Assembly (NCBI GenBank): GCA_947581755.1
Contig: CANPVN010000002.1
Coordinates: forward strand, 1-64,000
Length of the DNA stretch: 64,000 nt
Direction: 5' to 3'
Source of the DNA: an uncultured Clostridia bacterium
Lineage (GTDB): Bacteria > Bacillota > Clostridia > Christensenellales > Pumilibacteraceae
Below are positions 23,615 to 41,068 of this stretch, in pieces (the stretch's first letter is position 1; every line of letters starts with the position of its first letter). Under the pieces are notes generated by a model that saw only the letters and a program-made list of their open reading frames with translations, did no database searches and was not told the origin of the DNA. Both the position numbers and the translations under genes were made by a program.

Positions 23615-23806
23615 TTACTCTTCTTTTTCGGCTTTTATTGTGATTTTTTGTACGCCGTCATAATAGCCGCAATGCTTGCAAACTCTGTGATTAAGTTTGG
23701 TTTCGTGGCATTGAGGGCATTCACTAATAGAAGGGTTTGATAACTTCCAATTAGCATACCTTGTATTCGTTCTTTGCTTCGAGGTTTTGTGCTTGGGTAC
23801 TGCCAT
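23615..23806 (-). CDS. rpmF: Ribosomal protein bL32
   Basis: 63-residue large-subunit protein. The N-terminus MAVPKHKTSKQRTNTRYAN is typical, and the zinc ribbon is the C-x2-C-x9-C-x2-C type (CPQCH and CKHCGYYDG). The start at 23806 is fixed by AGGAGG and by homology; the longer frame upstream is not used. The usual upstream gene yceD is absent. Confidence 0.97.
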   Translation of the reverse strand: MAVPKHKTSKQRTNTRYANWKLSNPSISECPQCHETKLNHRVCKHCGYYDGVQKITIKAEKEE

Positions 23807-23880: not shown

Positions 23881-24050
23881 ACGTTTTTAATTAATTTGTT
23901 CGAATTTTTTATTTTTTGTCGGTTGTAATATTAAATACTAAAATAATCGGTCGTAACGACTCCCCCCCCCGGCGTTTTCGGATAAAGAATAACGCAAATA
24001 ATTCGGAAAGTCACGATATGTCACGTATTTTGAAACATACAAATCGTAAC
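23881..24050. other. Intergenic region left of the small RNAs
   Basis: No gene or structure was found. A run of eight C lies at 23963-23970. Confidence 0.5.
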
Positions 24051-24136
24051 AAAAAAAGAAGTCCCCGAGACTATCCGCTCGGGGCAATGCCGCTATCTCG
24101 ACGGCAGGTGTAAGCACATTATAAGTTGCTTACCTA
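24051..24136 (-). ncRNA. Candidate small RNA 1 (three serial hairpins)
   Basis: A complete transcription unit without an ORF. The promoter at 24143-24171 would start transcription near 24136. The ~85-base product can fold into GTAAGC/GCTTAC, then TGCCG/CGGCA, then a terminator stem CCCCGAG/CTCGGGG (24062-24084) followed by ACTTC and seven T. It matches no RNA family that I recognise (not 6S, SRP, tmRNA or a known riboswitch). It is independent of the downstream rpmF promoter. Confidence 0.7.
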
Positions 24137-24142
24137 ATGTTT

Positions 24143-24171
24143 ATTATAGACATTTTTACTTAAAAAGTCAA
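24143..24171 (-). promoter_or_regulatory. Promoter of candidate small RNA 1
   Basis: TTGACT (24166-24171), 17 bases, TATAAT (24143-24148) on the minus strand. The flank upstream of -35 resembles that of small RNA 2. Confidence 0.8.
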
Positions 24172-24237
24172 GGAAATTGAGAAGATTTGGAGTATAGTAT
24201 GGAAGCGGGTATTTACCGTGGTTTTATAAAAAACGGT

Positions 24238-24302
24238 AAAAAAAGTAGCGCCCGCAAGAAGCATTATCTTCTCGCATTTGACTTTTTGAAGTCGCGCTAC
24301 AA
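24238..24302 (-). ncRNA. Candidate small RNA 2 (closed three-way junction)
   Basis: The predicted ~65-base transcript begins right at an outer stem GTAGCGC (24294-24300) that pairs perfectly with GCGCTAC (24245-24251) and is followed by seven T, so the outer stem is also the terminator. Inside are two hairpins, GACTT/AAGTC and GCGAGAAG/CTTCTTGC (one G-U), giving a compact three-way junction. No ORF fits. No known family is recognised. Confidence 0.72.
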
Positions 24303-24308
24303 AATATA

Positions 24309-24336
24309 ATTATAAATAGAAAAATAAAAAAGTCAA
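24309..24336 (-). promoter_or_regulatory. Promoter of candidate small RNA 2
   Basis: TTGACT (24331-24336), 16 bases, TATAAT (24309-24314) on the minus strand. Confidence 0.78.
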
Positions 24337-40794: not shown

Positions 40795-41068
40795 AAAAAA
40801 ACTGTGCATCCATCTTCGATGACGCAAACCGAACCGTTTCCCCGTCGGTTACCTCTCCCGAAGCTACCTTGTGGCACATACCATGGTCTCCTTAGTGCTG
40901 CTGCGGTCAAGCTCTGACACGGTTCAAAGTATGATATTGCACAAGACCCCGATGTCATCGGCACCTAACGGATACAGACGTCCCATAAACGAAACCTCGG
41001 ATGGCATTCTGCCCTACTATAGCGGATTGTAGGTTACAGGGCACCGCTGGCTCCCCGCATAGCACAGT
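40795..41068 (-). ncRNA. ffs: Signal recognition particle RNA, large form
   Basis: About 270 bases. The 5' Alu-type part (GCGGGGAG, GCGGTGCCCTGTAACC, AATCCGCTATAG, GGGCAGAAT) is typical of Bacillota scRNA. Helix 8 has GTGTCAG on one side and AGCAGCACTAAG on the other. The flanks CTTGTGC/GCCACAAG pair as helix 5. The ends ACTGTGC and GCACAGT pair and are followed by seven T. The apical part between GTCAG and AGCAGC (AGCTTGACCGC) has the usual eleven bases but no GGAA tetraloop. It partners Ffh, which is encoded 7 kb away. Confidence 0.92.

Follow-up and report, generated by a model that had tools for sequence, protein, structure and literature searches.

A terminator-closed small RNA gene associated with inovirus-like elements of Clostridia and its neighbouring protein of predicted MazF fold

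A small RNA gene of no described family, here called RNA A, lies in the window (the whole stretch of 64,000 nucleotides that was analysed, from an uncultured Clostridia bacterium), and comparison with homologous sequences indicates that the gene is real. RNA A is best read as a non-coding RNA gene of inovirus-like elements of Christensenellales-type Clostridia. We give about an even chance to the further reading that it belongs to a phage protein–RNA module in which a protein of predicted MazF fold (SP), probably a toxin, is restrained by the structured RNA, the window having kept the RNA only. Both the phage origin and the membership in a protein–RNA pair were missed by a preliminary description of the locus made from the DNA letters.

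RNA A and RNA B: genes, folds and conservation

RNA A (~63 nt) is encoded on the minus strand near a second small RNA, RNA B (Table 1). Its promoter (TTGACT-16-TATAAT) is near-consensus for sigma-70 and strong by sequence. The outer stem GTAGCGC begins at 24300, eight bases past the -10 box, which makes it reasonable to place the transcription start on the stem's first base or immediately ahead of it. Inside the stem (P1), two hairpins, P2 (GACUU/AAGUC) and P3 (GCGAGAAG/CUUCUUGC), complete a small closed three-way junction, and the 3' partner of P1 is followed by seven T, so that the closing stem doubles as the terminator. This terminator was overlooked by a simple terminator scan because the scan is limited to loops of 3–8, and 42 nt lie within the closing stem. 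The fold has a minimum free energy of -25.7 kcal/mol, compared with -13.7 +/- 2.7 for shuffled sequences (z -4.45; 0/200 shuffles equally stable). The promoter–terminator unit, the double role of its outer stem and the two inner hairpins had all been recognized in the preliminary description. Convergent to RNA A, a scrap of about ten codons, below useful BLAST length, reads TAT TTA CCG TGG TTT TAT AAA AAA CGG TAA (YLPWFYKKR*) and would be the 3' end of an SP gene, which ends in PLPWKYPKK* in intact phage copies.

Table 1. Features of the RNA A–RNA B locus (window positions unless stated otherwise)
Feature	Position	Strand	Basis or remark
-35 box TTGACT of RNA A	24336-24331	(-)	11/12 consensus score together with -10
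-10 box TATAAT of RNA A	24314-24309	(-)	16-nt spacer from -35
RNA A, three-way-junction small RNA	24238..24300	(-)	fold, covariation, covariance-model matches
P1, closing stem of RNA A	24300-24294 with 24251-24245	(-)	GUAGCGC/GCGCUAC
T7 tract of RNA A, 3' of P1	24244-24238	(-)	P1 + T7 form the intrinsic terminator
Putative scrap of SP gene 3' end	24210..24239	(+), convergent to RNA A	from position and reading frame
-35 box TTGACT of RNA B	24166..24171	(-)	promoter scan
-10 box TATAAT of RNA B	24143..24148	(-)	promoter scan
RNA B, three-hairpin RNA	24053..24135	(-)	terminator hairpin CCCCGAG..CTCGGGG + T-run
Possible scrap of RNA B partner gene 3' end	24045..24071	(+)	RNKKRSPRD, cf. RGKKNPRN; weak, by eye
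Second RNA B copy, source genome	contig C3 25734-25818 (L003 2235-2319)		between recF and rpoB, upstream of rpoB
rpmF (ribosomal protein L32), host gene, outside the module	23627..23804	(-)	own consensus promoter 23880-23852

RNA A has zero matches at or above the gathering threshold among all 4227 Rfam families, and none even at permissive thresholds, in agreement with its having been proposed as an undescribed element. A blastn comparison with relatives yielded three copies in other genomes, in which the promoter, three stems and T-tract are kept and the stem sequences differ. A covariance model built from these and the window sequence (four in all) was searched against the order, where 14 of 297 genomes matched at E <= 0.01 (nine with E no higher than 2e-11), and against the family, where 10 of 74 matched; outside the source genome, 0 genomes matched among 341 sampled from the class. 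Since homologues in many genomes share the three stems, the promoter and the T-tract, the layout is not due to chance. At least three P3 types occur: UGCGAGAAG..CUUCUUGYGG, UGAAUGGGC..GCCCGUGGG and UGAACGAA..UUUGGCGG.

Among 17 distinct copies, two-sided (compensatory) changes are found in 14 of 20 pairs, and 95.8% of pair cells are compatible with the nested structure. The preliminary description had let its reading of the inner stems depend on covariation, and every helix has at least four pairs changed on both sides. The covariation score is 0.513, compared with 0.228 after shuffling (0/500 reach it) and 0.110 for the best slid version; the alignment was fitted to the covariance model and leans towards the structure, and the slid controls still leave a wide margin. 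The transcribed strand is more stable than its complement in 21/21 copies, because conserved G-U pairs would be A-C on the other strand. Together, covariation and strand-specific stability argue that it is the transcript whose structure is maintained.

RNA B, which also has its own promoter and terminator, occurs in about a dozen of the order's genomes and displays its own covariation in 16/20 pairs. The similar -35 neighbourhoods noted in the preliminary description are present as a 19-nt match of 95% (24162-24180); its proposal that the two units are tandem duplicates with diverged bodies did not hold. The two RNAs belong to distinct families: their folds differ, each has its own homologues, and each is linked to a different protein of predicted MazF fold.

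Phage elements and partner proteins

About half of the RNA A copies sit inside integrated inovirus-like (filamentous phage) elements, one RNA unit per element. The element genes encode a Zot-type ATPase (PF05707), the initiators Rep_1, Rep_OBD and REP_ORF2-G2P, membrane proteins resembling coat proteins, and either an integrase or an IS30 transposase; some elements with RNA A show only part of this set. The combination by which inovirus-like elements are recognized, a Zot/pI-type ATPase with a rolling-circle initiator, is present in genome G022 (Zot PF05707 and Rep_1); initiators found elsewhere are REP_ORF2-G2P in G085 and Rep_OBD in G018. The G022 element is flanked by a 23-nt direct repeat resembling a tRNA 3' end (L034 5694 and 16394). 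RNA A lies inside this repeat-bounded prophage and thus is not its attachment site, and an attachment-site scar was rejected as a general account of RNA A. The named hosts comprise Pumilibacter intestinalis, Candidatus Protoclostridium and Candidatus Limadaptatus. Searches of IMG/VR and of GenBank phages and plasmids found no SP relatives. The single IMG/VR match to the RNA pattern was taken as chance, the genes of its contig resembling those of an unrelated tailed phage.

In the elements, RNA A stands tail-to-tail with the gene for SP, the 3' ends of the two genes abutting or overlapping slightly. SP is basic and all-beta, with a length of about 96 aa (SP and SP2, the partner of RNA B, together cover 80-150 aa). 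A search with the SP sequence gave 17 loci, part of them in the same genomes as the RNA-model matches. At 17/17 SP gene ends, a convergent promoter (at least 10/12) and a terminator lie no more than about 200 bases away, compared with 10/228 other gene ends at the same loci. The RNA is a three-way junction or close to it at 15 of these loci and of another kind at two (L051, L059). Together with L126, these two loci have a main-group SP and a different convergent RNA with the 5' start GCGUGAGUUUC and a separate terminator hairpin. Remote SP relatives (E 1e-5 to 1e-12) also face a convergent RNA closed by a terminator stem, with a promoter also detected by the scan at most of them, and their RNA bodies cannot be aligned to RNA A. 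Because the layout is kept with unrelated RNA bodies, it predates the RNA sequence. At the remote loci L136-L141 and L145, the convergent, terminator-closed RNAs contain motifs, CGAAUUAAGUUUCG and GUCGAAAGGAC among them, that differ from RNA A.

The sequence pattern HPALIVGE...YRKVMHS suggested MazF/PemK, an expectation for SP that was set down before the fold search. The AlphaFold model of SP (pLDDT 84.4, pTM 0.75) retrieved MazF in all of the first 41 PDB rows in Foldseek (probability up to 0.99, E 0.05), and the best rows in VIA were all MazF/CcdB (Z 8.6, 77 residues, 2.8 A), although a Z near 8 may reflect the common small beta barrel. These scores are moderate, and the weight of the predicted MazF fold comes from one family filling the list and from the prior prediction. 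Sequence profiles found no PDB relatives of SP, PADLOC and NCBIfam gave no matches, and a fold search of BFVD gave weak matches only. As judged by eye, the catalytic Arg of MazF appears to be lost in SP, with His in the HPALIV motif. SP would share the MazF fold with the type II modules MazEF and Kid-Kis but has no apparent adjacent MazE-like gene in the ORF lists, which are non-exhaustive; phage structural genes precede it.

SP also follows the RNA type: its identity is 0.706 within and 0.674 between types (p 0.004), and one SP column splits type I (6/6) from the others (0/10). This is as expected of a binding pair, although shared descent of linked genes could suffice.

The analogous partner of RNA B is SP2, encoded tail-to-tail with it in G076 and G284 with 3' ends overlapping by a few bases. 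At the SP2-family loci, where RNA bodies are unrelated, a convergent promoter of at least 9/12 is found in 10/10 and a terminator was seen by the scan in nine; a promoter of at least 10/12 together with a terminator is found in 8/10. The SP2 pattern RPVVVIE..NDLAVVPLSS likewise suggested MazF/PemK, and comparison with Pfam PemK_toxin gave a weak match below the cutoff (E 0.002-0.005). The SP2 model matched MazF and the type III toxin CptN (4rmo) in Foldseek with probability 1.00, AbiQ and ToxN scoring lower, and reached a VIA Z of 10.0. SP2 is thus predicted to be a MazF/CptN-like protein.

Solo copies and arrays

SP and SP2 are absent from the source genome, which has retained RNA A and two copies of RNA B, so that both window RNAs are solo. 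They are flanked by a patatin-like gene on one side and rpmF-plsX-rnc on the other, and RNAs and genes are all encoded on one strand. RNA A is also found without SP in G033, G027, G210 and G289. The positions of solo RNA A vary: at rpmF (two genomes, of different genera), at argG-argH, at dnaG-rpoD and upstream of ctsR. In the argG-argH case (L039 9748-9806), RNA A is antisense between the two genes with no recognisable SP scrap.

Complete promoter–RNA–terminator units also form arrays, in some genomes only and with mixed P3 types. In G085, an array in the order B-A-B-C-B-C-B-A (L035 4380-6450) adjoins a XerS-like recombinase gene, and G289, a related genome, has a related array in the same place (L036 8800-9400). 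RNA C is a third small-RNA family of about 120 nt with its own promoters and terminators within the G085 array (three copies on the minus strand, L035 4555-4708, 5387-5531 and 5707-5850); an Rfam match was not found. G027 carries two RNA A P3 types in tandem and a further copy on another contig (L041 8742-8961; L095 1-250). Between G085 and G289, the RNAs are 94-97% identical, compared with 65-77% for the promoter regions and 50-72% for downstream sequence. High RNA identity amid diverged flanks is consistent with selection on the RNA, and gene conversion or relatedness could contribute. The -10 boxes of several solo RNA A copies (G033, G210, G289, G645) are weakened, which would fit relics as well as protection.

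Proposed module and alternative explanations

A MazF-fold protein (as predicted), a constant structured RNA neighbour and no apparent protein antitoxin are most simply read as an RNA-restrained toxin. In the module proposed here, a strong promoter of its own would drive RNA A, tail-to-tail with SP, and the transcript would end at its closing-stem terminator. SP would be a MazF/CptN-like RNA-binding protein, toxic to the cell and probably an endoribonuclease, and the folded RNA would bind and inhibit it by analogy with type III antitoxins, although linkage of protein and RNA is no proof of interaction. The RNA body would diversify together with SP, and RNA B would derive from a similar pair whose protein is a different MazF/CptN-like one. 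A solo RNA would be either an anti-addiction or immunity RNA that protects the host against related incoming phages or a well-preserved relic. It is possible, and put forward only tentatively, that these pairs represent a new toxin–antitoxin (TA) type, in which MazF-fold proteins of filamentous phages, from at least two sequence families, each stand tail-to-tail with an autonomously transcribed RNA inhibitor. These inhibitors would be structurally diverse and would terminate at their closing stem or last hairpin, and hosts would collect them as solo RNAs and mixed arrays that serve as RNA-based anti-addiction or immunity memory against these phages.

The closest known systems are type III TA modules (ToxIN, CptIN, TenpIN; AbiQ), which also combine a MazF-like-fold protein with a structured RNA gene and intrinsic terminator on mobile elements, and the predicted folds of SP and SP2 have the ToxN/CptN/MazF-like beta core. 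Type III TA is defined as an operon with an upstream, tandemly repeated antitoxin RNA (PMC5086642). Here, the RNA lies downstream, convergent and with its own promoter (17/17 SP gene ends), as a single unit per element rather than a tandem repeat, and is a three-way junction or a set of hairpins with bodies of several unrelated kinds. The SP–RNA pair is not filed as type III because its RNA is neither upstream in an operon nor tandemly repeated; by analogy it may work like type III despite the different layout. AbiF/RCd22 of C. difficile is a prophage-borne toxin with a structured RNA acting in cis and trans (PMC12373285) and resembles the present pair as a phage-borne protein beside a structured RNA, the toxin role being proposed here. 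Its protein belongs to the Abi_2/AbiD/F family, however, and its RNA precedes the gene with two abiF motifs; an Rfam search did not find the abiF motif (RF03085) in the RNAs here. Inoviruses are known to carry TA genes, all predicted as type II except one type IV and all but one in proteobacterial inoviruses, with no RNA partner reported (Roux et al., 2019; PMC6813254), whereas the partner here is an RNA. As far as the open-access literature was searched, an inovirus RNA antitoxin or MazF pair is nowhere described. Should the proposed mode of action hold, RNA antitoxins would be brought to inoviruses in a layout invisible to current searches, which look for upstream repeats, and the pair would be a tractable system for studying how a MazF-fold protein is held in check by a small folded RNA. 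With solo RNAs and arrays, one could then examine directly whether hosts retain antitoxin RNAs as phage protection.

The alternative that ranks first, although unlikely, is a cis-acting phage element (a complementary-strand start, a packaging signal or a transcription block between convergent units) whose solo copies are dead relics. The intergenic position is like that in f1/M13, with the gene-sense strand as template, and the recombinase gene adjoining the G085 and G289 arrays is where Xer-using inoviruses would insert repeatedly. A cis element accounts poorly for bodies that differ wholly between related phages while promoter and terminator persist, for structure selected on the transcript strand and for RNA identity of 94-97% amid diverged flanks in solo and array copies; the internal G022 copy speaks against an attachment site. 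Also unlikely, and placed just after it, is a type I-like antisense RNA that pairs with the SP mRNA over the mRNA's 3' portion and whose fold merely gives stability. With abutting or slightly overlapping 3' ends, read-through SP mRNA would be complementary to the RNA, and convergent type I modules are known from Clostridia prophages: in TxpA/RatA and RCd8-10 of C. difficile, a prophage RNA converges with a small gene whose 3' end it overlaps or abuts (PMC6563280). Those RNAs are long antisense transcripts, however, whereas the RNA here is conserved and folded, as its compensatory changes and strand-specific G-U pairs indicate, and P3 sequence and fold are kept across phages with diverged flanks. 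SP and SP2 also differ in size and predicted fold from the small hydrophobic toxins of type I. The preliminary description had suggested a search for base-pairing targets; a duplex screen, run over SP-sense sequence as far as the end of SP and leaving aside the complement of the RNA itself, gave an RNA no preference for its own phage (p 0.14).

That screen also weighs against a phage small RNA with another target (replication control, or superinfection immunity by base pairing) and SP as an accidental neighbour. The strong autonomous promoter, the arrays with mixed P3 types and the retention in hosts would all suit such an RNA, but SP or SP2 is linked in essentially every element copy found, remote homologues included, and we regard this explanation as quite improbable. 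That the host has recently domesticated RNA A to regulate its rpmF-plsX locus is very improbable: the two genomes of different genera with RNA A upstream of rpmF speak for it, but of 25 other genomes searched only 1 has RNA A near plsX, and other solo copies lie at the different positions given above. An ancestral rpmF leader was rejected on the same ground, the other plsX loci being without the RNA. A replication terminus at the RNA A locus was also rejected, the window having no GC-skew switch. Two minor features of the window are a run of about nine C at 23962-23971, between RNA B and the rpmF promoter, and a bacterial large SRP RNA (RF01854) at 40802-41067 on the minus strand.
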